Shown here in pieces: positions 6,497 through 19,184 of a stretch of 64,000 nt of DNA. Numbering within the stretch: the stretch's first letter is position 1; every line of letters starts with the position of its first letter. The DNA comes from Olivibacter sp. SDN3 (lineage in GTDB: Bacteria > Bacteroidota > Bacteroidia > Sphingobacteriales > Sphingobacteriaceae). The notes beneath the pieces are model-generated. The model was not told the origin of the DNA. It did not search any database and worked only from the letters and a program-made list of their open reading frames with translations. Location of the stretch: positions 2,666,001 to 2,730,000 of the forward strand of contig NZ_CP060497.1 of the NCBI RefSeq assembly GCF_014334135.1. The letters run 5' to 3'. A program made the translations under genes and the position numbers.

Positions 6497-7597
6497 ATGA
6501 ATAATGAAGATCGGATAAAAATATTGTATATAGATGACGAAAGGCAGAACCTAGTAGGTTTTAATGCTCATTTTAGGTACGACTACGTTGTTTTTTTGGC
6601 TAGTAATATTACTGAAGCGCTTAAGTTTTTAAACGATCATCCGGATATACGGATTGTTTTTTCAGATCAGCGGATGCCCGATAAATTAGGAACCGACTTT
6701 TTTAAGGAAATTCGTGTAAGTTATCCGATGCCTGTGCGAATTCTTCTTACGGCATTTACAGATGACCTTAAAACATTGGTTGACGCGATTAATAAAGGGA
6801 ATGTATATCGATTTGTTCAGAAGCCTTGGAATTATGAGACAATTAATAGGGTAATACAAGAAGCAAATAGGCACTACTTGACCAACTCGTTGTTGAAGCT
6901 GAAAAATAAGGAACTGGAAAGTGCTTATCGGGAGCTCGATAAATTTGCTCATCATGTAAGTCATGACTTACGAGGACCCCTGACGGGGATCCTATCGGCG
7001 GCCAAACTTGCACTTGAAGTGGATGATCAAAATGAAGTAAAGGAAATTTTAAGTATTATATCCAATTCTGTAGAACACTTAGATAAGTACATTCTTCAAA
7101 TACAAGATTATTATAGTATCAAAACCGGCGAATTTAATGTTTCAAAGATAAGCTTAAAGGATGTTGCTCAAGATATGCACGCTATTTACCATACCCACGC
7201 GAACGTAAAGGGAATAGATTTCCGCATAACCATTAATGAATCTATACCGTTTTTCTCTGATGAAGTGGCCTTAAGACTGGTACTTAATAACTTGTTGTCG
7301 AACGCCTTTAAATATCAGCGTCCGGAGGAAGCTGATAAATTTGTTAGTCTTGACATGAGTGTTTCTAATGCGCATGCAACTTTTAAAGTAAAAGACAATG
7401 GGCTTGGGATAAAAGAGGAGTATTTAGACAAAATTTTCAATCTATTCTTTCGAGCTTCATCGTTAACAACGGAGGTTGGCAGCGGGATAGGTTTATATAA
7501 TGTACAAAATGTGTTGGAAAAATTAGGAGGAACTATCACCGTAAATTCAGTGGAACGCGAAGGAACGGAATTTCTTGTGAAGATTCCCAGCAATTGA
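6497..7597 (+). CDS. Soluble hybrid: N-terminal receiver plus histidine kinase
   Basis: A 366-residue protein with no membrane segment. Residues about 7-125 are a receiver domain (D13-D14, phospho-acceptor Asp57 in S-D-Q-R-M-P, L-L-T-A-F-T-D, and a terminal F-V-Q-K-P-W). Residues about 150-210 hold a HisKA dimerisation helix with S-H-D-L-R-G-P and His156 as phosphorylation site. Residues about 245-363 are the ATPase domain (N-N-L-L-S-N-A N-box, D-N-G-L-G-I G1 box, G-S-G-I-G-L-Y G2 box). The REC-HisKA-HATPase order suggests a kinase whose activity is set by an upstream phospho-donor. Its receiver closely resembles that of the response regulator at 11698-12159, so both may be fed by the same sensor kinase (9509-11701). 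Confidence 0.93.
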   Translation: MNNEDRIKILYIDDERQNLVGFNAHFRYDYVVFLASNITEALKFLNDHPDIRIVFSDQRMPDKLGTDFFKEIRVSYPMPVRILLTAFTDDLKTLVDAINKGNVYRFVQKPWNYETINRVIQEANRHYLTNSLLKLKNKELESAYRELDKFAHHVSHDLRGPLTGILSAAKLALEVDDQNEVKEILSIISNSVEHLDKYILQIQDYYSIKTGEFNVSKISLKDVAQDMHAIYHTHANVKGIDFRITINESIPFFSDEVALRLVLNNLLSNAFKYQRPEEADKFVSLDMSVSNAHATFKVKDNGLGIKEEYLDKIFNLFFRASSLTTEVGSGIGLYNVQNVLEKLGGTITVNSVEREGTEFLVKIPSN

Positions 7598-7653: not shown

Positions 7654-8769
7654 ATGCATCCCGAACAGGTAAATCGCTTTGATCAAAACAATTATCAAGT
7701 AAAGATATTTTATCGAAGGAATTCGGCAGAAAAAAAGGCCATGGATAAATTTTTGGCTGATGTTCAGGATATTCAAATTGTTGATACTATTTATCAGCAG
7801 TTGATAGAGCTGGTTAAGATTAGTTATCCTTCGTACGATTGGAATAAACAAAAATTTGAAGAAGCGATCAATGAGTTGCTCGGCAATCAGTCCTGTGATG
7901 ACTATGGAACGTGGGTTTATTACCCTTGGCTTGGAAAAATAGTACATCTGCTGGATGAAGATGATTTTATTAAAGTGAGAACCAGCAGAAATATTTACAA
8001 AATTACGCCCGAAGAAATAGCTGTTTTACGAAACAAAAGGATAGGAATTATAGGGCTGTCTGTTGGACAAAGTATTGCCCAAACCATGGCCATGGAACGG
8101 ATATGCGGTGAACTTAGGCTGGCAGATTTTGACAACGTGGAACTAAGCAATATGAATAGGGTGAGGTGTGCTGTACATGAGCTCGGTATCAATAAAACGG
8201 TTCTTGCTGCTAGACAAATAGCGGAGCAAGATCCGTATCTAAAAGTGGTGTGTTACCAAGAAGGGGTGAATATCGAGACAATCGACGAATTTTTAACAGG
8301 GAATGGTAAGCTGGATTTGCTAGTAGAAGAATGCGATGGTATAGATATAAAAATAATAGCCAGAATCAAAGCCCGAGCGCTTAAAATACCTGTTATCATG
8401 GATACAAACGATATGGGGATGTTAGATGTTGAGCGATATGATCATGAACCGGATAGACCTATTTTCCATGGAAGGTTACCACAGTTAGATGATGGAGACG
8501 TGAACGAACTAGCCCTTAAACTTAAGCATTTGCGCGCTGAAGAGAAGGTGCCGTATTTGGTGGATATTATAGGCATGGAAAATGTATCGGCTGCAATGAA
8601 AGTTTCGCTTGCGGAGATGAATAAAACAATTGTTGGCTGGCCTCAACTTGCTTCATCGGTAGTTTTGGGCGGGGCAATGGTTACTGATGTAGGGAGACGT
8701 ATTCTATTGGGTAAGCACACGAGTTCCGGAAGGTATTTTATAGATTTTGATGAATTAATCCAAGGTTAA
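7654..8769 (+). CDS. ThiF/E1-like adenylyltransferase-fold protein (Rv1355c-like)
   Basis: A 371-residue protein. After about 100 residues of unassigned N-terminus comes an E1/ThiF/MoeB-type nucleotide-binding domain: I-G-I-I-G-L-S-V-G (about 130-138), the L-A-D-F-D-N-V-E-L-S-N-M-N-R segment that binds ATP ribose and metal, the conserved G-I-N-K-T Lys and an E-E-C-D-G strand end. The paired CxxC zinc motifs of classical MoeB/E1 proteins are absent, and no ThiS/MoaD-like partner is nearby. It should adenylate a carboxylate, but the substrate is unknown. It lies 3 nt before a GNAT-like gene and upstream of a sensor kinase, forming a tight operon. The fold assignment is firm; the Rv1355c/MoeY resemblance is an inference. 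Confidence 0.8.
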   Translation: MHPEQVNRFDQNNYQVKIFYRRNSAEKKAMDKFLADVQDIQIVDTIYQQLIELVKISYPSYDWNKQKFEEAINELLGNQSCDDYGTWVYYPWLGKIVHLLDEDDFIKVRTSRNIYKITPEEIAVLRNKRIGIIGLSVGQSIAQTMAMERICGELRLADFDNVELSNMNRVRCAVHELGINKTVLAARQIAEQDPYLKVVCYQEGVNIETIDEFLTGNGKLDLLVEECDGIDIKIIARIKARALKIPVIMDTNDMGMLDVERYDHEPDRPIFHGRLPQLDDGDVNELALKLKHLRAEEKVPYLVDIIGMENVSAAMKVSLAEMNKTIVGWPQLASSVVLGGAMVTDVGRRILLGKHTSSGRYFIDFDELIQG

Positions 8770-8772
8770 GGT

Positions 8773-9501
8773 ATGATCCAGATTAGAACCTTTAGAGCCC
8801 CAAACGACCCAGAAGCTTGTAGTAAATTTATAGTCGGGCATAGAAAATTACTTGAAATCTTCGGTATTACGCAAATAACTTCCAACAGACAAGACTGGGT
8901 GGATGATCCGAATACGATTGTTATCCTTGTGGAACATATGGAAACAAAAATGGTGTATGGAGGTGCTCGCATACAGATGGTAAGTGAACGGTATCCGCTA
9001 CCTATCCAAACAGCTATCGGGAAGTATGATGCGAAAATTTTTGACTTGATAAAAGAAGATGAAGCCAGGGGGGGGACCTGTGAAATCTGCGGTCTTTGGA
9101 ATTCCAGGGAGGTTGCTGGAATGGGGATAGGAAGTTATATACTTTCTAGAGTAGGTGTTGCAATTGCAAAGCAACTGCCAGTTGTTAGTCTATTTGTGCT
9201 TTGCGCGCCGATAACAGTGAAAATGGGGTTACGCCTAGGGTGTATGGTAGAAAAAAAACTAGGGAACGAGGGACTTTTCTATTACCCTAAAGATGATTTG
9301 GTAGCAACGGTTATGCGTATGAAAAATATAGATGATTTGAGCTTAGCCACAGAAACAGAGCGTGAGAAAATTTTAGCTCTTCGGGCGCAACCACAACAAA
9401 CAATTTTGGAAAAGGGACCGAAAGGAGAATACCTAGTGAAGTATGATTTACTTATTCCTGATTTTGATGAAAGCAGTCAGCATACAATTGTCGCGCTTTA
9501 A
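8773..9501 (+). CDS. GNAT-fold acyltransferase-like protein
   Basis: A 242-residue protein with features of the GNAT/autoinducer-synthase fold: an early F-I-V-G-H-R-K-L-L helix, central strands (TIVILVEH, YGGARIQ), C-E-I-C-G-L-W-N followed by V-A-G-M-G-I-G (a pyrophosphate-binding loop of the R/Q-x-x-G-x-G type, with Glu in the first position), the helix SYILSRVGVAIA, then VSLFVLCAPITVKMGLRLGC, the usual last strand-helix. It would move an acyl group from acyl-CoA or acyl carrier protein to an amine. It resembles long-chain N-acyl amino acid synthases more than small acetyltransferases, but this is an inference. It starts 3 nt after the ThiF-like gene, so both products are probably made together. 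Confidence 0.7.
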   Translation: MIQIRTFRAPNDPEACSKFIVGHRKLLEIFGITQITSNRQDWVDDPNTIVILVEHMETKMVYGGARIQMVSERYPLPIQTAIGKYDAKIFDLIKEDEARGGTCEICGLWNSREVAGMGIGSYILSRVGVAIAKQLPVVSLFVLCAPITVKMGLRLGCMVEKKLGNEGLFYYPKDDLVATVMRMKNIDDLSLATETEREKILALRAQPQQTILEKGPKGEYLVKYDLLIPDFDESSQHTIVAL

Positions 9502-9508
9502 CAAGTTA

Positions 9509-11701
9509 ATGTTGAGCCTGGTAGGCGAAAGGATAGGGTTCTTGATGTTGAATCTAATGTTGCTGGGATCATATGGTTTATATGCACAGGAATGCCCTTC
9601 GGCAATATCATTGCAAAGCGCATCTTCCCCGCTGATGATTGATACTGGGATTTCTTATTATATCGATGAAACCAAGGATGCCGACTTTGAATCGATACGG
9701 GTGGAACATTTTCAAAGAAAGGTAAATAAGGGGGTGCTCAATTTTGGCTTTACACAATCGAAAGTTTGGTTAAAGTTCTGCCTGTCTAACAAGTCCTTAA
9801 GAACAGATTTTTTTCTTTTACTGCAACAGCCGTCCTTAGATAGTGTGATATTATATGCCGTTGATGAAACGGGTGAGGTGTTGATAGATAGTTTGGGTAA
9901 GTATAAAACCTTTTATGAACGGTTTGTTCGAGCCCCCGATTATATTTTTCCACTGACCTTAGATTCGGGCACGGAAAGAGAAATTTATATTAAAATATCG
10001 TCAAACGATCAATTGCAAATACCTTTATTCGTAGGTAGTGAGGAAGCTATATTACAAAAGCTATCTAATAAAAATCTGATATTTGGGCTTTATGCGGGGG
10101 CTGTGCTTATTATGATGCTGTATAACTTTTTTGTAAGTGTCTCTACGCGTGATAACAGTTACGTTTTTTATATCCTCTATATCTTTTCTGTTGGACTGAC
10201 TCAAGCCTTGTTTCAAGGGTATGCTTTCATGTATTTTTGGCCTAATAGTGCATTTATGGCAGGTTTTAGTTCTATTTTTGTTCCGTTCTTTTCTGGTTTG
10301 ATGACCATCGCCTTTATTAAATCCTTTTTACATACGAAATTCTATGCGCCAAAATGGGATCTAGGAGTAAATGTTATTGTTATCTTGTATTTTGCTGCTT
10401 TATTAATAGGAATTTTTGATATTTACTACGGAGCAATCGTTCTACAGGTTATTGCATCACTTGGATCTATTTATATCCTCTTTCTGGCAAACTACATAAG
10501 GAAATTGGGCTATCGACCGGCTATTTTCTTTTTGGTTGCCTTTACGGTATTCTTTGTCAGTGTAATTCTTTTTGTTTTAAGGAATTTTAATGTTATTCCT
10601 TACAACACATTCACATCTTATATTTTAGAAATAGGATCTATTCTGGAAATATCTTTACTTTCTTTCGCATTAGCCGATCGGATTAACTTTTATAGGAAGG
10701 AAAAGGAGGCCTCTCAGGCCCATGCTTTAAAGGTTTCAAAAGAAAATGAACGCATTATCAGTGAACAAAACGTATTGCTCGAAACGGAGGTTGCCAAGCG
10801 AACAGCAGACCTTGAAAAAACTAATGAGCATTTAAATAATGCTATGCAGAACTTAAAACAGGCCCAAGCACATTTGGTTGAATCTGAAAAATTAGCATCT
10901 TTAGGTATGCTCACAGCCGGTATTGCACATGAGATCAATAACCCCATTAATTTTGTAACCTCAAACGTTGGACCGCTTAAACGGGATGTCGCATTTCTGC
11001 TAGAAACAATTGAATTTTTCGAAAAAACAGCTTTATCCTCTTCTGACATTCAAGATAAAATGGAGAAAATCAGTCAGTATAAAGAAGAACTGGAGTTTGA
11101 TTACCTTAAGGAAGAAATTCAATCATTATTAAGTGGTATTCAAGAGGGGGCAGTAAGGACAGCCGAAATTGTGCGAAGTTTACGTGTTTTTTCGAGAGTG
11201 GACGAGGATGATCTAAAGTTGGCCAATTTGAACGACTGTATTGAATCGACTTTGGTTGTGCTGAATAGCATGATAAAAGATAAAATAATTGTTGAAAAAA
11301 ATTATGGAGAACTCCCTTATGTAGAATGTTTCCCTGGAAAACTAAATCAGGTGTTCTTAAACCTGATAACCAATTCAGTACACGCGATAGAACAAAAATT
11401 TAGTGCTTCTTATGGAGGAAAATTGCTGTTGCATACACGCGCGGATGAAACATATACGTATATTACTATTAAGGATAATGGAGGAGGTATTAGTGATGAT
11501 GTCAGAGATAAAATTTTTGAACCGTTTTTTACTACTAAAGAAATAGGTGAGGGAACCGGTCTAGGTTTAGCTATTGTTTTACAGATCATATCAAAACATC
11601 ACGGAAAAATAACGGTTAATAGCGAGGAAGGTGAAGGGTGTGAGTTTTTGATTAAAATTCCGATTGCTCACCCTAATTCAAGTCATGTCGACGATTACTA
11701 G
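9509..11701 (+). CDS. 7TM-type sensor histidine kinase (7TMR-DISM like)
   Basis: An ATG at 9509, 7 nt after the upstream stop, starts a good signal peptide (residues 1-27, ending L-Y-A-Q); a longer frame from 9443 would overlap the GNAT gene by 59 bp and is less likely. Order: signal peptide, periplasmic beta-sandwich of about 165 residues (DISM-type, with [10 protein letters not shown]), seven membrane helices (about 190-400), coiled coil (about 405-465), HisKA with phospho-acceptor His474 in G-I-A-H-E-I-N-N-P, and HATPase (N-L-I-T-N-S, D-N-G-G-G-I, G-T-G-L-G-L-A). It senses an extracytoplasmic ligand and phosphorylates a receiver, probably that at 11698-12159, whose gene converges on it. 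Co-transcription with ThiF and GNAT genes suggests their product is sensed. Confidence 0.92.
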
Positions 11702-12159
11702 GAAAGCAGTCGTTGTCTAAGCAAGAACTCTAATTGCTCATTTGTTAGAGAAAGTTGATCGTTCGCTTCTTTAATCTTTTTTTTCTCCATAAAGGCTTGG
11801 TAGGCTTTTTGAATAGTATTGTCTAACTCTTCTTCACTCCAGGGTTTATTAAGGTAATGAAAAATTTTTCCTTTATTGATGGCTTCTACTACTGCAGCCA
11901 TGTCTGTATAACCGGTTAGTAGAATTCGTGTTGGATCCGGGTATGTGGGAATAATATGCTCAAGAAACTCGACCCCTGTCATTTTGGGCATGCGTTGGTC
12001 GGTTATGATGACTTCAAATGGGTGGTTACTTAACAATACCATAGCTTCTTCACCACTAATGGCAGTTTTTACGTTATATTTCTTTCTGAAAGTAGCTTTG
12101 AAGGAAATAAGATTGTTCTCTTCGTCGTCAACATAGAGAATATTGATCTTTTCTTGCAT
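11698..12159 (-). CDS. Single-domain response regulator (RpfG-like receiver)
   Basis: A 153-residue protein: receiver domain (D11-D12, phospho-acceptor Asp54 in I-T-D-Q-R-M-P, L-L-T-G-Y-T-D, Y-L-N-K-P-W) plus a short C-terminal helix, with no output domain. The ATG at 12159 is preferred over an in-frame start at 12207 because a TAnnTTTG element ends only about 35 nt upstream of it, which would put the longer start before the transcript. Its stop codon overlaps that of the converging sensor kinase (shared CTAG at 11698-11701). It probably relays phosphate or binds a partner kinase, such as the one at 6497. Confidence 0.9.
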   Translation of the reverse strand: MQEKINILYVDDEENNLISFKATFRKKYNVKTAISGEEAMVLLSNHPFEVIITDQRMPKMTGVEFLEHIIPTYPDPTRILLTGYTDMAAVVEAINKGKIFHYLNKPWSEEELDNTIQKAYQAFMEKKKIKEANDQLSLTNEQLEFLLRQRLLS

Positions 12160-12193
12160 GATATCTCTTAATTTAATGGACTTTTCCGCATAA

Positions 12194-12230
12194 CAAATGT
12201 AATACAAATCCTTTTTTGAATTTTAACAAA
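12194..12230 (-). promoter_or_regulatory. Candidate promoter of the receiver gene
   Basis: On the reverse strand TACATTTG (12194-12201) fits TAnnTTTG and a TTTG lies upstream at 12227-12230, with a spacing of 25 nt, slightly longer than usual. It places transcription start about 28 nt before the ATG at 12159. Confidence 0.45.
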
Positions 12231-12431
12231 TAAAAAATAAATTTTTATAACCGTTTCACACCCAGTATTGTTTGCTCTTATTTGGAGCTGTAAAGAACGA
12301 TAAAAACGCAAATGAGAAGAGCTTATGGGTTTTTGCCCAAAAATAGTTATTTATGGGGGCTGTGTATTTATGAGTAATTATATGTGTAGTGTTTCTTGAT
12401 ATGTATAAAAAAATCTCATATAATTGTATGT

Positions 12432-12818
12432 ATGTCTCCACCTCAAATTGCAATTGTAGATGATAATGAGTTCCATAGAGCCTTACTTCGGGAGGTCTTG
12501 GAGTCTCATGGTTTTAATGTGGCTCTTGAAGCAGAAAATGGCGAGAAATTTATCGACGCGTTAGCCAATCTAGATCAACAACCCATGTTATGTATAGTTG
12601 ATATTGTTATGCCTGGTTTGGGGGGGTATGAAACTATTAAGTGTATCAAGGAAAAGTGGCCAGAGGTTAGAGTAATGGGGTACACTGGAATGGTGGAGCC
12701 TGACACTTTTCAACAAGTTATTAGTTGTGGAGCCGATTTTCTTATATTAAAGGGAGACCATCCGAAGAATATGATACGAACTATAAAGGGCTTGGTACAA
12801 GATTGGGCAAAACAGTGA
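12432..12818 (+). CDS. Single-domain response regulator
   Basis: A 128-residue receiver domain: D10-D11, phospho-acceptor Asp57 in I-V-D-I-V-M-P, G-Y-T-G-M switch Thr, L-I-L-K-G-D Lys. It resembles LuxR-family receivers that have lost the HTH. The ATG at 12432 is chosen over one at 12396 because receiver homology begins at once. Its last 38 bp overlap the converging HTH gene. It may act as a phosphate sink or protein-binding switch; no kinase is directly adjacent on its strand. Confidence 0.88.
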   Translation: MSPPQIAIVDDNEFHRALLREVLESHGFNVALEAENGEKFIDALANLDQQPMLCIVDIVMPGLGGYETIKCIKEKWPEVRVMGYTGMVEPDTFQQVISCGADFLILKGDHPKNMIRTIKGLVQDWAKQ

Positions 12819-13104
12819 TTTTTGCGTAACACCCACCATTTGTATTATGGTATTCCTGATTGTTTAAAGGTCTTAATTGAACATCTATCAGGATCTCATA
12901 TGCACTAGTATAATAATAGCTTCTGAAAGTTCTGGAATAAGCAATGGGAACTTCCATTAATTTCAACTCTTCAATGATTTGATAGATTCTTGATACGGAT
13001 AAATTTAACCTTTCTGCAAGTTCTTCAGGTGTGCCCGTACGTTTACGTTTAATGAGTTGATGTAAACGGTTTACCCTATCAATGTACATAAATAATTTCA
13101 TCAT
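12781..13104 (-). CDS. HTH protein with C-terminal double-glycine leader-like tail
   Basis: A 107-residue protein (102 from the ATG at 13089). Residues about 8-50 form a DeoR/HTH_11-type winged helix-turn-helix (L-H-Q-L-I-K-R-K, T-P-E-E-L-A-E-R-L-N-L-S, R-I-Y-Q-I-I-E-E-L-K), followed by I-A-Y-S-R-T-F-R-S-Y-Y-Y. The tail carries L-N-N-Q-E-Y-H-N-T-N-G-G, matching the Leu(-12), Glu(-8), Gly(-2), Gly(-1) pattern of leaders cut by C39 peptidases, then a 16-residue end beginning Cys-Tyr-Ala. The gene is last in an operon with a C39-peptidase exporter (13152-15323) and HlyD adaptor. So it may be a regulator, a peptide precursor, or both. The last 12 codons overlap the opposite-strand receiver gene, so the tail could be constrained or accidental. 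Confidence 0.75.
   Translation of the reverse strand: MMKLFMYIDRVNRLHQLIKRKRTGTPEELAERLNLSVSRIYQIIEELKLMEVPIAYSRTFRSYYYTSAYEILIDVQLRPLNNQEYHNTNGGCYAKITVLPNLVPSPL
12784..12867 (-). other. Putative GG leader motif and 16-residue peptide in the HTH gene
   Basis: Codons for the leader-like motif occupy 12832-12867, with the Gly-Gly pair at 12832-12837; the possible released peptide is encoded at 12784-12831 (Cys, Tyr, Ala, Lys, Ile, Thr, Val, Leu, Pro, Asn, Leu, Val, Pro, Ser, Pro, Leu). Motif fit: Leu -12, Glu -8, Tyr at the hydrophobic -7 position, Thr at -4, Gly -2 and -1. Confidence 0.5.
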
Positions 13105-13151
13105 AATGCTAATTCAAGATGCACTTTTACCTCTAGAACGAATCGTTGATT

Positions 13152-15323
13152 TTATATTAGCGTTGTTTCTGGTAAAACAATCGTTTGGGGTTTCCACATA
13201 TTATAATAGACAGCTTGCTTTTGGACTAACTCTTCGTGAGTTCCTTCTTCTACAACCTTGCCGCCCTGCATGACAATGATTTTATCAGCGCCAACAACCG
13301 TACTCAATCTATGGGCAATAAGAATTACCGTTTTGCCCTGCTGACGCATATCGCTGATCGCTTGCTGAATGTATCGCTCCGAAGCGGTATCAAGAGACGA
13401 TGTCGCTTCATCTAAAATGAGAATTTCCGGCTTTCGATAAAGCGCGCGGGCAATAGCTAGTCGCTGACGCTGACCACCGGAAAGTGAAGCTCCGTTTTCT
13501 CCCAGGTAAGTGTCGAAACCTGCCGGTAGCTTCTCCACAAAGGATAGAAGCCCTAAGGACGAACAAATCTCTAAAATGCGGTTTATATCAGGGGATAGAT
13601 CGCCTACCGCAATGTTATCTATAACGTTGCCTGCAAATAAATCAATTTGTTGAGGTACCACACTAATAAATTGACGGAGACTTGACGGGTTAATATGCTT
13701 TATATCTAGCCGACCAATAAAAATATTTCCCGCTTGAATAGGGTAGATCTTTTGTAGTAGCGAAAGTAAGGTGGTTTTTCCTGATCCGCTTTCGCCAACG
13801 ATCGCTGTTGTTCTACCTTGAGGTATGCAAAGGTCAAGGTGGCTGAAAATGGGTGCGCGTGTACCATAACGAAAGGTTACGTCTTTGAAAATAATATCGC
13901 CCATAAGCGTTGGGCTTAGCGATGCTTTATTTTCAGTTTCTTCTCTTTCCAAATCCATTATTTCAAATAGGCGATCAGCAGCGATTACGGCGTCCTGAAT
14001 ATTTCTGTTCATGGTGATCAAACTGCTGACGGGCCCGGTGAAGTAACCAATGAGGGCGTAGAATGAGAGAAGTTCTCCGGGAGTAATATGTCCGTTCAAA
14101 ACAAAATTAGACCCCGCCCATAGAAGAATAATGGTGAACAAGCTGGAAAAGAAAGAGCTCGAATTACCAATCCATAATGCGTTGATAGAAGACGTATATA
14201 CGGTTTGCAGTAATTTAATAAATCTGTTTTCTGTCTTCATATTGGCGAAATCTTCCAACCCAAAACGTTTAACTGTGCCTACGGCATTGATAGACTCCAC
14301 CAGTTGGGCTTCCAAATCGGCCGATCGTTCCATTAAGCTGCGCTGAGTTTTTTTATTAAGGTGATCGGAAATATAGTATATGATGGCGTATATGGGTATA
14401 ACCAGCAGGATGATCACGGCAAGTTTCCAATAGTAGGTGAACATTAGGCCGAAGGAAAAGATGACGATAAAGATGTTAACGGCAAAGTTTACCAGCACGT
14501 CATTAATGAATGTTCTAATCTTTACCGCGTCATTAACACGGGAAATGATCTCCCCTACACGCATCGTGTCAAAAAATTGTTGCGGAAGTCGGAGTAAGTG
14601 TTTGTAATAACCCAAGATGAGGCGCGCGTCAATCTGTTGACCACTTCGAAGCGTGAAGCGTGTTTTTGCGTGATTGATGAAAAATTGAAGACCTAATATT
14701 ACGATCATAATGACTCCCATGAGATTGAGGAGGTTATGATTACCATTTGGCAGTATCTGATCAATTATTTTCTGTACAAAAATGGATGTGGAAAGACCAA
14801 GAATGGTATATATAATGGAACCGAAGAGTACTTGCAGGAATACTGAACGATGTGGTTTGAGAAGAAAAAGAAATCTACTGGCAATGGAAACACGTTTTTT
14901 GCCTGATTTGAATTGCTCATTTGGGGCCATCAACACCAATACTCCGGTCCATAATTTCTCGAATTCGGTGTGTGGTATTTTATGGATTTTACCGTCGGCC
15001 GGATCCATGATTTTAACGTTTTTTTTATTGATTTGATAGATAACCACATAGTGATGTAACCCATTGTTATAGATAATATGTGCGATGCTGGGCAGCGGTA
15101 TTTTATAAAGACTATCATATGTCCCTTTTACCCCCTTCGCTGAGAAGCCTATTTTATTTGCGGCAGCAATTAGCCCCATAACATTTGTTCCTTTGGTGTC
15201 TGTACCTGCATGCTGACGGATGCGAGCGATAGGCATCAGAAGTTTATGATGAGCAGCGATTGAAACTAAACAGGCGGCGCCGCAATCAGTAATGTCGTGC
15301 TGTTTTATTCTTATACCAGACAT
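13152..15323 (-). CDS. Peptidase-containing ABC transporter (C39 bacteriocin/peptide exporter)
   Basis: A 723-residue PCAT protein. The C39 peptidase domain (about 1-135) has Gln8, catalytic Cys14 in D-C-G-A-A-C, His91 in H-H-Y-V-V-I and Asp107 in M-D-P-A-D-G, the full triad. Then six membrane helices (about 160-440) and the ATPase domain with Walker A G-E-S-G-S-G-K-T-T from residue 510, L-S-G-G-Q-R-Q-R signature, I-L-I-L-D-E-A Walker B and A-H-R-L-S-T. It cuts leaders after Gly-Gly and exports the mature peptide across the inner membrane. It lies 21 nt after the HlyD-family gene and 47 nt before the HTH gene, whose tail has the only GG-leader-like motif seen nearby. Confidence 0.96.
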   Translation of the reverse strand: MSGIRIKQHDITDCGAACLVSIAAHHKLLMPIARIRQHAGTDTKGTNVMGLIAAANKIGFSAKGVKGTYDSLYKIPLPSIAHIIYNNGLHHYVVIYQINKKNVKIMDPADGKIHKIPHTEFEKLWTGVLVLMAPNEQFKSGKKRVSIASRFLFLLKPHRSVFLQVLFGSIIYTILGLSTSIFVQKIIDQILPNGNHNLLNLMGVIMIVILGLQFFINHAKTRFTLRSGQQIDARLILGYYKHLLRLPQQFFDTMRVGEIISRVNDAVKIRTFINDVLVNFAVNIFIVIFSFGLMFTYYWKLAVIILLVIPIYAIIYYISDHLNKKTQRSLMERSADLEAQLVESINAVGTVKRFGLEDFANMKTENRFIKLLQTVYTSSINALWIGNSSSFFSSLFTIILLWAGSNFVLNGHITPGELLSFYALIGYFTGPVSSLITMNRNIQDAVIAADRLFEIMDLEREETENKASLSPTLMGDIIFKDVTFRYGTRAPIFSHLDLCIPQGRTTAIVGESGSGKTTLLSLLQKIYPIQAGNIFIGRLDIKHINPSSLRQFISVVPQQIDLFAGNVIDNIAVGDLSPDINRILEICSSLGLLSFVEKLPAGFDTYLGENGASLSGGQRQRLAIARALYRKPEILILDEATSSLDTASERYIQQAISDMRQQGKTVILIAHRLSTVVGADKIIVMQGGKVVEEGTHEELVQKQAVYYNMWKPQTIVLPETTLI

Positions 15324-15344
15324 AAATATTTTGTTAAATAAATA

Positions 15345-16523
15345 CTAGGTGCTACGACTATTTGCAGGATTTAACCAATTGTCAACCTTATCGTACAATA
15401 GCTGGAAAAGGCTACGCCTAGCGATTTGAAAGCGTGCTTGTACACTCATGCCCTTCTTTAATCTACCTTCGTAACCGTTTGGAAGGTAAAGAGAGCCTTG
15501 TTGTAATTGGCATTTTACCTGAAATATGGCTGAGCGATTTTCATCGATGTCAACGTCTTTGGAGATGTCGACAATGCTACCGCTTACCATGCCCCACTCG
15601 TGATAATTAAAAGCGTCTATCTGTAGACGAACGGGCATGTCTGGCCTAAGCAAGCCAATATCTCTAGGAGTAATACCAATGATGGCAATAAGCCCTGAAT
15701 CTGGAGAAATTTCAACTACGGTCTCACCCACGGTAACGAAATTGCCTGGTAGTATACCGTTAAATTGTTGTAGCGAACCGTTGATAGGTGCTTTAACCGT
15801 GTATAGATCTTTTTCTTGTTCAAATCGCTCATGTTGCGATGTGAGATCCATTAGCTCCGCGTTCAAACTATTTAGATCTGTTTGCCACTGGTTGATCTGT
15901 TGCTCGTGTATTAATCTCTTTTTGTTTAGCGCTGCTTGATAATCGAAATGAACTTTCTCGAATTCAGCATCAGAGATAACTTGCTTATCGTATAGCTTTT
16001 TGTTTCTTTCGTAAATACCCTGTGCGTTCTCCAAATGCAGTTGCGCATCTGAGTATTGTTGTATATATAGATTATATTGTTGGCGATAAAGAGCAGATTG
16101 TAACGACAAATTACCTATAGTGCTGTTTTCTCGGAGGTGTGTTAATTTGCGAAGATCGCTGAGACGTTGTGAAATCTCTATTCTTCTTTGTGTATTGAAC
16201 GATGATTGCTCGTTAAGCTGGTTGGTTTCTATAGTGAATAATATGTCGTTAGCTTGTACCTCTTGGTTTAATTTAACATATACTTGCTTAATTCGTCCAG
16301 ATATAGGGGCTTTTACCATATTACGCTCGTTGATAGCGGTTAATAAACCCTGTCCGTTGACGCTTACATCGACTTTAATAAAAAATAGAGAAATAAAAGC
16401 CAATACGGTAATGCATAATACTGCTTGATAGATGATATTACTACGGCTGTTGTACCTATAGAAATGATGCTCTGTAGTAAATTCTATTATTTCAGAAGGA
16501 AAGATTAGTTTCTCAGTTGCCAT
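15345..16523 (-). CDS. HlyD-family membrane fusion protein
   Basis: A 392-residue periplasmic adaptor: short cytoplasmic N-terminus, one membrane helix (about 33-52, I-T-V-L-A-F-I-S-L-F-F), a lipoyl half-motif (V-K-A-P-I-S-G-R-I-K-Q-V-Y), a long alpha-helical hairpin (about 115-235), the second lipoyl half (T-V-K-A-P-I-N-G-S-L-Q) and a beta-barrel domain. It links the downstream PCAT exporter to an outer-membrane TolC-type channel, which is not encoded in the window. It is the first gene of the operon hlyD, PCAT, HTH. Confidence 0.93.
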   Translation of the reverse strand: MATEKLIFPSEIIEFTTEHHFYRYNSRSNIIYQAVLCITVLAFISLFFIKVDVSVNGQGLLTAINERNMVKAPISGRIKQVYVKLNQEVQANDILFTIETNQLNEQSSFNTQRRIEISQRLSDLRKLTHLRENSTIGNLSLQSALYRQQYNLYIQQYSDAQLHLENAQGIYERNKKLYDKQVISDAEFEKVHFDYQAALNKKRLIHEQQINQWQTDLNSLNAELMDLTSQHERFEQEKDLYTVKAPINGSLQQFNGILPGNFVTVGETVVEISPDSGLIAIIGITPRDIGLLRPDMPVRLQIDAFNYHEWGMVSGSIVDISKDVDIDENRSAIFQVKCQLQQGSLYLPNGYEGRLKKGMSVQARFQIARRSLFQLLYDKVDNWLNPANSRST

Positions 16524-16675
16524 AGCTCTTTTCGACGTAATGCTTCAGCCGATTTGTTTTTTATTTTTTTTACTGCACTTGACCTTAATATAGATATGAT
16601 GAAAGGTGTTGTTAAACTTTTCAATTCACGTGTTTGAACTGAAGAATAAAATTATGTGCTTATGGTTTTTGCTAC

Positions 16676-16700
16676 AATAGCTGATTTCAGCTATTTTTTT
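16676..16700 (+). terminator. Orphan intrinsic terminator
   Basis: A 9-bp stem (AATAGCTGA / TCAGCTATT) with a 2-nt loop is followed by a T-run to 16700. No plus-strand gene lies upstream of it (genes there are on the reverse strand), so it may end a small RNA or an antisense transcript. Confidence 0.5.
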
Positions 16701-16834
16701 CTAATGGATATTCATGACCGATTCTTGCTTCATCGCGATTGCTTGATTTCTATTACGATTTAATTGTATTTTGAAGTAATATTGAGAAGAGCTGGAAAAC
16801 TCAATGTTAATTTTAAATAGCTAAAACGATTTAT

Positions 16835-16842
16835 TATATTTG
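16835..16842 (+). promoter_or_regulatory. Candidate -7 promoter element of the GH92 gene
   Basis: TATATTTG matches TAnnTTTG exactly and sits 32 nt before the ATG at 16875. A -33 TTTG is not clear. Confidence 0.5.
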
Positions 16843-16874
16843 TACGAGATACTGATATTATAAGCTATTTAATT

Positions 16875-19184
16875 ATGAGACGACTTATGCTAGTCTTAAC
16901 GGGTGCTATTATGGCCTTTTTCGGCACCTCTTTTGGTCAACAAGCAATCATCCAACCTGAACCCGCTGAAACAGAAGACCTTGTTCATTATGTAAATACG
17001 CTTCAAGGAACGAATTCCAAACATGAACTTACAAGAGGCAATACCTATCCAACCACGGCTTTACCTTTTGCAATGCATACCTGGACGCCACAAACCGGTG
17101 AAAATGGAGACGGCTGGAAATATCAGTATTTTAAAAAAACATTGCGGGGGTTTCAACAAGCACACCAATGCAGTTCGTGGTCTAATGACTATGCGGTATT
17201 TTCTTTCTTTCCTACTATCGACAGCCTTCAAGTGGACGAGAATGCGCGAGCAACAGGTTTTACACATGAAAAAGAAGTTGCTAAGCCGCATTACTATAGT
17301 GTAACTATGGATAATAATATACAGGTGGAGATGTCTCCAAGCGAAAGAGGGGCGCATCTACGTTTTTCTTACCCACAGGAACACGAGGCATTTTTAGTAT
17401 TGGATGGCTATACGGGAATAAGCATGGTTAAAATTTTTCCTGATGAACGGAAAATTATTGGATATGTGAATAATGGCAGAGGTTTTAAGGAGGGGTTTAA
17501 AAGTTTTTTTGTTGCAGTTTTCGACCAACCATTTAAAGCTTATGGCGCTTGGGAAAATAGAGATAATAATATATATCCAAACAAATTGGAAGATGAAGGC
17601 GAAGGAAAAGGCGCATACCTGACATTTGAAAAAGGAGCAACGGTTCAGGTAAAGGTAGCATCTTCTTATATTAGTATGGAACAGGCAGAGCTAAACTTAA
17701 CGCAGGAACTGATGCAGGATAAAGCGTTGGAGGATACGAAAAATCGTGCGGGTGATGTTTGGAATAAACACCTATCTCGTATAAAGGTGGAGGGGGGAAG
17801 TGAGGCTGATAAAGCAACTTTTTATAGCTGTTTCTTCAGGGCGAGTTTGTTTGCGCGGCGATACTATGAATATGATAAGGACGGAAACGCTTATTATTTC
17901 AGCCCATATGATGGTAGGGTTTATTCGGGTTACATGTTTACTGATACAGGACTCTGGGATACGTTTAGGGCACAGTTCCCGCTGAATGCATTGTTGTATC
18001 CGACGATGCATGGACGTTATATGCAAGCATTACTGGCTGCCTATGAACAGTGTGGATGGCTACCCTCTTGGTCTTTCCCCAGTGAAGCTGGGAGTATGAT
18101 TGGGAACCATGCTATATCATTACTTGCTGATGCGTGGGCAAAAGGTATCCGCACTTTCGACCCGGAAAAAGCTTTAGAAGCTTATCTGCATGAGGCAACG
18201 AATAAAGGACCTTGGGGGCCGGCAAATGGCCGAGATGGATGGAAGGAATATTACCAACTTGGATACGTACCTTATCCCGGTATTCGTGAAGCAACTGCAA
18301 AAACGTTGGAATACGCTTACGATGATTTTTGTGGATACCAGTTGGCGCTCATGGCTGACAAACCTTTTTATGCGGATATTTTTAAACGACAGATGTACAA
18401 CTATAAAAACGTGTTCGACCACAAGACGGGTTTTATGAGGGGGAGAGACAGGCTTGGGAAATGGAATCCAGATTTCGATCCAATGGAATGGGGAGGAGCG
18501 TTCACGGAAGGGAATGCATGGCATTGGCTGTGGTCGGTTTTTCATGACACAAAAGGGCTTACGGAGTTGCTTGGTGGCGACGAGAACTTTATAACAAAAT
18601 TAGATGCCGTTTTTACCGAACCCAATAGGGTAAATGTAGGGACGTATGGAGGAATGATTCATGAGATGACAGAAATGGTAATGGCCGATATGGGGCAATA
18701 TGCACATGGAAATCAACCAATACAACATATGGTATATCTGTACAATTATGCTGGTGCTCCCTGGAAAGCTCAGTATCATGCCAGAAATATTATGGATAGG
18801 TTATACAATAGCACTGAGAACGGTTATCCAGGAGATGAAGATCAGGGCCAAACCTCTTCTTGGTACGTGTTAAGCGCGATGGGGTTTTATAGCGTTTGCC
18901 CGGGTACCGATGAGTATGTGATAGGAAGCCCGCTGTTCGAAAAAGTTACCATAACGATGGAGGACGGAAAGACGTTTGTGATACATGCAAAGAATAATGA
19001 TAAAGATAATGTATATATTCAGGAAGCTAATTTAAACGGTGAGACATATACTAAGAACTACCTTACTTATAAAGATCTCATTAATGGCGGCCGGCTGGAA
19101 TTGCTTATGGGAAGAGAGCCTTCTCGAACACGTGGTATGGCAGAGGAAGATAAACCATTTTCGCTTACCGATAGAACCAGGTAA
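16875..19184 (+). CDS. GH92-family mannosidase-like enzyme with Gln at the acid position
   Basis: A 769-residue secreted protein with a signal peptide (residues 1-22, ending S-F-G-Q). GH92 landmarks: N-T-L-Q-G-T and G-N-T-Y-P near the N-terminus, T-G-L-W-D-T-F-R-A, L-E-Y-A-Y-D-D-F, F-T-E-G-N-A-W-H-W, H-G-N-Q-P-I-Q-H and G-D-E-D-Q-G-Q-T-S-S-W-Y. In most GH92 alpha-mannosidases the HGNxP motif carries Glu, the general acid; here it is Gln614. The same change is known from a bacterial GH92 that cleaves mannose-1-phospho-6-mannose, where the leaving group needs no acid. So this may be a mannosyl-phosphate hydrolase rather than an ordinary mannosidase. It stands alone, away from the paralogue at 39894-42200. 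Probably periplasmic. Confidence 0.9.
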   Translation: MRRLMLVLTGAIMAFFGTSFGQQAIIQPEPAETEDLVHYVNTLQGTNSKHELTRGNTYPTTALPFAMHTWTPQTGENGDGWKYQYFKKTLRGFQQAHQCSSWSNDYAVFSFFPTIDSLQVDENARATGFTHEKEVAKPHYYSVTMDNNIQVEMSPSERGAHLRFSYPQEHEAFLVLDGYTGISMVKIFPDERKIIGYVNNGRGFKEGFKSFFVAVFDQPFKAYGAWENRDNNIYPNKLEDEGEGKGAYLTFEKGATVQVKVASSYISMEQAELNLTQELMQDKALEDTKNRAGDVWNKHLSRIKVEGGSEADKATFYSCFFRASLFARRYYEYDKDGNAYYFSPYDGRVYSGYMFTDTGLWDTFRAQFPLNALLYPTMHGRYMQALLAAYEQCGWLPSWSFPSEAGSMIGNHAISLLADAWAKGIRTFDPEKALEAYLHEATNKGPWGPANGRDGWKEYYQLGYVPYPGIREATAKTLEYAYDDFCGYQLALMADKPFYADIFKRQMYNYKNVFDHKTGFMRGRDRLGKWNPDFDPMEWGGAFTEGNAWHWLWSVFHDTKGLTELLGGDENFITKLDAVFTEPNRVNVGTYGGMIHEMTEMVMADMGQYAHGNQPIQHMVYLYNYAGAPWKAQYHARNIMDRLYNSTENGYPGDEDQGQTSSWYVLSAMGFYSVCPGTDEYVIGSPLFEKVTITMEDGKTFVIHAKNNDKDNVYIQEANLNGETYTKNYLTYKDLINGGRLELLMGREPSRTRGMAEEDKPFSLTDRTR

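Follow-up and report, generated by a model that had tools for sequence, protein, structure and literature searches.

In Gram-positive class II and ComC-type loci, a C39-peptidase exporter and a partner protein occur with double-glycine (GG) leaders that carry Leu at -12, Glu at -8 and hydrophobic residues at -7 and -4, numbered back from the second glycine. The leader positions given for the ComA C39 peptidase are Leu-12, Glu-8 and Leu-7, and LahT150 is described as requiring hydrophobic residues at -12, -7 and -4, with Thr at -4 accepted and cleaved (PMC10885120, PMC6363468). Nif11 and NHLP (proteusin) leaders place a long protein-like N-terminal part before the C39 GG site, and the available part of the source does not describe them as DNA-binding regulators (PMC10885120). 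HTH_11 domains, GG leaders, C39 exporters and protein-like leaders of the Nif11 and nitrile-hydratase types are all known parts. Some regulators are secretion substrates in their own right; one is FlgM, whose export couples flagellar transcription to secretion.

Here, we describe a locus in which a leader of this kind, followed by a short peptide, appears to form the C-terminus of a predicted DNA-binding regulator, a combination that had no match in Pfam or NCBIfam models. Among the PMC matches listed, covered by their titles and abstract openings, none was seen to describe a GG-tailed regulator; subscription journals and preprints lay outside that scope. The locus lies in a 64,000-nucleotide stretch of DNA from Olivibacter sp. 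SDN3 (the window). It resembles Gram-positive class II loci in its C39 exporter, partner protein and leader pattern and in the bacteriocin-type precursors that lie beside the exporter in its relatives, but it differs from them, and from Nif11 and NHLP leaders, in that the protein ending in the candidate peptide is predicted to bind DNA. It shares the DNA-binding fold of HTH_11 regulators such as NiaR and the N-terminal domain of BirA; unlike these, it lacks a ligand-binding domain and carries a leader-peptide tail instead. The gene and its parts are as follows.

12781-13104, minus strand: HTH gene, an open reading frame of 107 amino acids with a start at 13101 shared with homologues
12901-13101, minus strand: predicted winged-helix DNA-binding domain (HTH_11), residues 2-68 of 107, from PF08279, AlphaFold2 and Foldseek
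12832-12882, minus strand: leader-like C-terminal segment VQLRPLNNQEYHNTNGG, positions -17 to -1, from the leader-profile score and a short predicted helix
12784-12831, minus strand: predicted 16-residue peptide CYAKITVLPNLVPSPL after Gly-Gly, from direct reading

Direct reading of the window protein bore out the proposal of the initial annotation that an HTH protein ends in a GG-leader-like tail plus 16 residues. The C-terminus is LNNQEYHNTNGG followed by CYAKITVLPNLVPSPL, and the last 28 residues run L(-12)NNQE(-8)Y(-7)HNT(-4)NGG and then the 16-residue end. With Leu at -12, Tyr at -7, Thr at -4 and Gly-Gly, this tail agrees with the published C39 leader requirements (PMC10885120, PMC6363468). 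The protein barely passed the Pfam HTH_11 model (PF08279; 25.4 bits, gathering cutoff 25). AlphaFold2 modeling produced a compact winged helix of the order H-H-H-E-E (block pLDDT 90-98), a short helix in the leader, at model residues 81-87 (mean 79 over residues 81-90), and a disordered peptide end of low confidence (about 50), so that the putative cut site looks exposed in the model. NiaR and other winged helices were nearest to this model in Foldseek searches (best E 0.04), with no matches at E 0.001 or better. In scans of Pfam (E <= 0.001) and NCBIfam (E <= 5, with filters that remove most matches above about 0.1), the leader and bacteriocin models TIGR01847, TIGR03949, PF10439 and ComC did not match the window protein, and neither did Nif11 or NHLP family models. 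When ten tailed proteins were compared with leader models, only L106 was matched over its tail, by TIGR04149 below cutoff (13.1 bits, cutoff 25). A PDB sequence search was of no use, its 21 matches being mostly to antibodies and none stronger than E 0.0026, and the single partial match in a plasmid collection was an annotated 'HTH domain-containing protein' of Aureibacter.

The neighbors of the HTH gene in the window are these.

13152-15323, minus strand: C39-peptidase ABC exporter (PF03412 Peptidase_C39, PF00664 ABC_membrane, PF00005 ABC_tran; TIGR01193)
About 14916-15308, minus strand: peptidase domain of this exporter
15345-16523, minus strand: HlyD-family adaptor of the exporter (PF13437, PF16576)
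12396-12818, plus strand: stand-alone, converging receiver gene (PF00072), outside the shared locus

The HlyD, exporter and HTH genes follow one another on one strand, with the HTH gene last and 48 bp from the exporter. The exporter passes TIGR01193 (533.9 bits, cutoff 523.85) and contains Cys14, the His motif LHHYVV and the Asp motif IMDPAD, confirming the earlier description of an HTH gene placed last in an operon with HlyD and an intact C39 exporter. The overlap of the last 12 codons of the HTH tail with the converging receiver gene, against which that description had cautioned, is likewise present. Six C39 matches, one of them weak, were found in the same genome. One HTH copy there (L004/L105; 74% identical to the window protein) lies directly behind a second exporter, another (L005/L106; 48% identical) lies just before HlyD and a third exporter, and both carry a GG tail; in Olivibacter domesticus (L001/L104) the order is HlyD, exporter, tailed HTH gene. 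Judging from sequence comparison with L104 and L105 (pN 0.16-0.17, pS 0.85), the window exporter is under purifying selection. A search for a shared operator in the upstream regions of the window locus, L104, L105 and L106 found just short common 11-mers, related precursor genes aside, and positions 11600-17000 held no credible known RNA element, the one match being a chance microRNA at E 0.81. Elsewhere in the window, and unrelated to this locus, a gene at 7654-9501 on the plus strand resembles Rv1355c-family E1/ThiF proteins (460 bits, cutoff 476) and is followed by a gene for a 242-amino-acid protein without an NCBIfam match; histidine-kinase genes at 6497-7597 and 9443-11701 flank this pair.

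Taken from the window alone, the tail has no significance, as the leader motif occurred in one of 772 short open reading frames against a residue-shuffled mean of 0.98. With tails left out, an alignment restricted to the HTH domain (A2) was used to search 251 genomes from the family and 395 from the class, and 120 stretches were taken from the matches listed, mostly with about 7 kb on each side and some shortened by contig ends. The census comprises the 112 HTH proteins of 55 bits or more among the matches listed, the window's included. Outside it are 13 rows scoring 40-55, all tailless, as well as lower-scoring matches, which also lie outside the stretches taken, and 11 class matches of at least 42 bits omitted because they were fragmentary, contained stops or scored low (four from G627 and one each from G622, G139, G303, G046, G138, G537:C36 and G539); those of G139, G303, G046 and G138 were read and were all tailless. 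A tail was scored when Gly-Gly or Ala-Gly stood in it with at least 8 residues on either side. This simple rule counts three doubtful tails (L155, L182, L189), reads L188 as Ala-Gly though its sequence runs on as AAGG, and scores L163 as untailed only because the contig ends inside the gene.

Among the matches listed, 48 of the 112 HTH proteins (in 46 stretches) carry a Gly-Gly or Ala-Gly tail, and 39 of the 48 tailed proteins have a C39 gene on the same strand within 7 kb, versus 15 of the 64 untailed ones (Fisher 1e-9). The tail conservation and strong C39 association that the initial annotation had proposed to check were thus both found. After dereplication at 75% identity, the counts were 28/37 versus 8/54 (5e-9); within 2.5 kb they were 35/48 versus 13/64, and within 200 bp the association was weaker (19/48 versus 10/64). 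The C39 open reading frame is under 300 amino acids, and so not a whole exporter, in 5 of the 39 C39-linked tailed cases. Nine of the 48 tailed proteins, two of them near contig ends, have no same-strand C39 gene in the stretch taken, contrary to the expectation that the tail would always be near such an exporter. The best HTH-domain tree, which is poorly resolved, needs at least 10 changes of the tail, and a kinship-corrected pair test had only 2 supported independent pairs, making significance impossible; the association is therefore not established independently of descent, and a large part of it reflects the contrast between one big exporter-linked group and a tailless 38-member group with one C39 neighbor.

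A sample of the phylum was searched with an alignment that includes the tails (A3), which biases this search toward tailed proteins. Matches came from ten genomes of one family of another class, and the protein was read in nine, of which six are tailed. Four of these six directly follow an ABC exporter open reading frame, the stretches being too short to cover the C39 domain, and each of the six has one or more separate precursors inside the 1.5 kb flanks; the three untailed proteins also adjoin an ABC open reading frame. An ordinary HTH protein with a GG tail arising by chance would fit the motif count of the window, but it does not account for a tail kept in the relatives counted above and present in two classes of the phylum, nor for the rarity of the motif when the window protein's own 40-residue tail is shuffled (56 of 20,000). 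Because it is conserved in relatives and linked to C39 genes, the window tail stands above chance, and we reject a chance origin, which we regard as highly improbable, on conservation in relatives.

Three stretches of the census contained further observations. L103 (8236-9822, minus strand) holds two tailed HTH genes with different tails and, between them, a gene for an Rce1-like protein (CAAX protease) that may be immunity-related. Two tailed HTH genes of one genome, identical in HTH domain and tail and about 11 kb apart, lie in L128 (6791-7111 and 18004-18324, minus strand), each adjoining a C39 open reading frame (261 or 544 amino acids), and are likely a recent duplication. In L151 (1462-1722), a relative of L148, the frame seems to shift just before the GG, and this is probably a damaged or mis-assembled copy.

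To compare the tails with leaders of the same loci, we used a profile of 68 distinct separate leaders, taken from short open reading frames with a GG motif and scored over -17 to -3, which excludes the GG. These separate precursors were chosen by a regular expression in which -12, -8 and -4 are set, and the HTH tails were not so chosen. The 45 distinct HTH tails scored -2.6 on average versus -18.8 (sd 1.2) for shuffled tails (z 13.7), and 23 of them scored above zero. The GG register was the best-scoring place in the protein for 31 of the 48 tailed proteins; the window tail scored +7.6, with the next best register of that protein at -4.7. These results support, at the level of sequence, the view that the tail is a conserved module matching the exporter-leader pattern with a short peptide behind it.

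Motif scans revealed no separate GG precursor in the window, either by a strict motif over the whole window or by a relaxed one over 4-26 kb. In this respect the initial annotation, which saw no separate precursor, holds for the window; it does not hold for the family, in which 37 of the 48 tailed proteins have separate GG precursors on the same strand within 5 kb. Within the same distance, precursors were found for 7 of the 13 untailed proteins whose C39 gene is no more than 2.5 kb away, and for 4 of the 49 untailed proteins that have no C39 gene within 7 kb. All eight precursors scanned against the class IIb bacteriocin model TIGR03949 matched at E <= 0.1, and three of the eight passed its cutoff. 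The argument from a missing precursor thus fails, and the counts instead point to bacteriocin-type loci in which the tail is extra to the normal substrates. For the family, we reject the idea that the HTH protein is the sole substrate of this exporter type, given these separate precursors; at the window locus, whose protein is one of the 11 tailed proteins without a separate precursor found, it may hold. This locus may have lost its precursors while the exporter remained selected, or the exporter may serve in trans.

A separate observation concerns DUF805b (RF02914, Rfam), which lies upstream of GG bacteriocin-type precursor open reading frames in 7 of 10 relatives, within 40 nt in five of them and about 210 nt away in two. 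The element was found in L106 and is absent from L104 and L105. In the genome of the window itself, four of six copies (L223-L228) have a GG-leader open reading frame that starts 38-47 nt past the midpoint of the element. Positions of the element in relatives (Rfam RF02914) are as follows.

L119: 7385-7419
L109: 7356-7390
L116: 4353-4387
L145: 6796-6830
L141: 7351-7385
L103: 8163-8197
L107: 7349-7386
L106: 11112-11148

A small open reading frame before hlyD in L104, located in the 400 bases upstream of 3572, contains ...LDTDVLYTTYGG^SILPSAPEIYDS... by eye and is a GG candidate that lacks Glu-8, so the strict motif would miss it.

The residues behind the putative cut site number 11-20 in 36 of the 48 tailed proteins. 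In 26 representatives, positional identity exceeded that of within-peptide shuffles, more so when anchored at the C-terminus (z 6.4) than at the N-terminus (z 4.3), and the residues at C-2, C-3 and C-4 are hydrophobic in 20, 17 and 16 of the 26, with TTFFV, NAFFVH and PLLFL as common ends. Four peptides of family f54 resemble FGGSNFRPxLLDGTLISLL, with 7 to 15 of 16 residues identical between pairs; their conservation is about that of the HTH domain in three of six pairs and lower in the three pairs with L239, and a fifth protein of this family (L242) ends right at the GG with no peptide. In L241/L243 and L250/L251, conservation of the peptide is clearly below that of the HTH domain, and in pairs of the first set peptide pN/pS was 0.78 versus 0.25 for the HTH domain, indicating that the peptide changes faster. 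Such fast change fits a selected peptide that changes specificity and would equally fit weaker constraint.

These properties bear on the alternative of a fused pheromone precursor, in which the secreted peptide would be the purpose of the tail and would induce the bacteriocin locus as a signal, after the manner of Gram-positive class II systems, and the HTH half, a regulator that happens to share its chain, would be left behind. Peptides that keep their length and terminal pattern despite fast sequence change, the good conservation of some f54 peptides, and the co-location of bacteriocin-type precursors that would share one exporter are all consistent with a signal. However, unlike in three-component pheromone systems, kinase and receiver domains are absent from the eight scanned neighbors of L104, L105 and L106, so that a classical sensor is not evident there; the kinase and receiver genes of the window lie outside the shared locus, and one genus retains the locus but has lost the tail and peptide. 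We consider this alternative unlikely. The hydrophobic end (FFV, FLFL, ILL) could instead set protein stability as a C-terminal degron or dimerization tail, with the likeness to leaders due to an old fusion or to convergence, in keeping with the C-terminal hydrophobic pattern and the disorder of this end in the model. That explanation is very unlikely in our judgment, as it leaves unexplained both the fit to neighboring precursor leaders with the GG excluded and the link to C39 genes.

Of the 48 tails, 30 have Gly-Gly and 17 have Ala-Gly, or 18 under the simple scoring rule with its misreading of L188. The precursors near tailed members, 68 by count and 67 distinct, are all Gly-Gly, in a scan that permitted Ala-Gly. 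On the leader profile, the Ala-Gly tails did no worse than the Gly-Gly tails (means of -0.7 versus -3.7). Set against the nearby precursors, the Ala-Gly tails suggest that some tails may be bound yet cut slowly or never. In one genus (g21), ten loci have retained the exporter next to an HTH gene whose protein stops between about -8 and -2.

g21 loci that are exporter-linked and tailless: L114, L116, L117, L119, L120, L122, L132, L133, L136, L141

The HTH gene abuts or overlaps the exporter gene in nine of these ten loci and is 783 bp from it in L117, and most of the truncated proteins still have the leader Leu and Glu. Three-frame reading beyond the stop in the ten loci revealed no tail remnant. 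In the HTH tree, the ten proteins group, without starred support, with the tailed L103_9490, and another g21 genome (L135) has a full Ala-Gly tail. The initial annotation had named homologues that keep the exporter neighbor but lack the Gly-Gly tail as evidence against its reading, and such homologues are found in these ten loci of one genus. Since these loci lost the GG and peptide and kept the exporter, the locus does not depend on the tail in every lineage, and no role proposed for it is essential for the locus to persist.

Docking without cutting would explain several of these features: the leader would mimic a substrate, the regulator would be held at the exporter or compete for it and so sense its occupancy, and the peptide would be a clamp or membrane-touching end. 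The Ala-Gly tails beside Gly-Gly precursors, their good fit to the profile and the retention of leader Leu and Glu in most of the truncated proteins all point in this direction. The prevalence of Gly-Gly among the tails argues against it, as does L252, the one separate precursor with an Ala-Gly site (SAG), which suggests that Ala-Gly may be cleavable in some systems. We regard docking without cutting as decidedly unlikely.

The reading that we favor, and to which we give about an even chance, is that the protein is a winged-helix regulator of a bacteriocin-type export locus whose C-terminus is a substrate module for its own C39 exporter and would couple export to transcription. From the conserved tail and its neighborhood, we infer that the exporter docks the tail and probably cuts it, releasing a short peptide. 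The tail would consist of a leader that ends in Gly-Gly, or in certain lineages Ala-Gly, and a peptide, mostly of 11-20 residues, with a hydrophobic end. The exporter peptidase domain would bind this leader as it binds the leaders of bacteriocin precursors and would cut after the GG; the peptide would be exported, and the regulator would be freed in shortened form or retained at the exporter. If the tail is a substrate of the locus exporter, the state or load of the exporter would feed back on the regulator, and transcription of the locus would track export capacity or precursor load. As with FlgM, the fate of the regulator would follow the state of an export machine; FlgM, however, is exported whole by the flagellar type III machine and has no GG leader, and the present case draws on sequence evidence. 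The conserved leader-like tail, the peptide and the C39 association together make the original idea of a DNA-binding protein that is also a peptide precursor a reasonable one, even as its supporting claims of a missing precursor and of constant proximity to exporters fell away. More tentatively, and with somewhat less than even confidence, these proteins could be single-protein switches found across the Bacteroidota, in which the regulator is both leader and precursor, each cut exports a peptide and resets the regulator, and Gly-Gly, Ala-Gly or loss of the tail tunes individual lineages.

Purified C39 domains have already served in in vitro work (PMC6363468), the tails are short, and the prediction amounts to a yes-or-no cleavage result. 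Should the tail be cut, a peptide exporter would be acting directly on a transcription factor as its substrate, and export capacity could be read without a separate sensor. If this is true, peptide signals of the Bacteroidota could be sought at the ends of regulators rather than in small open reading frames, and the tail would flag bacteriocin-type loci that precursor-based mining may miss.
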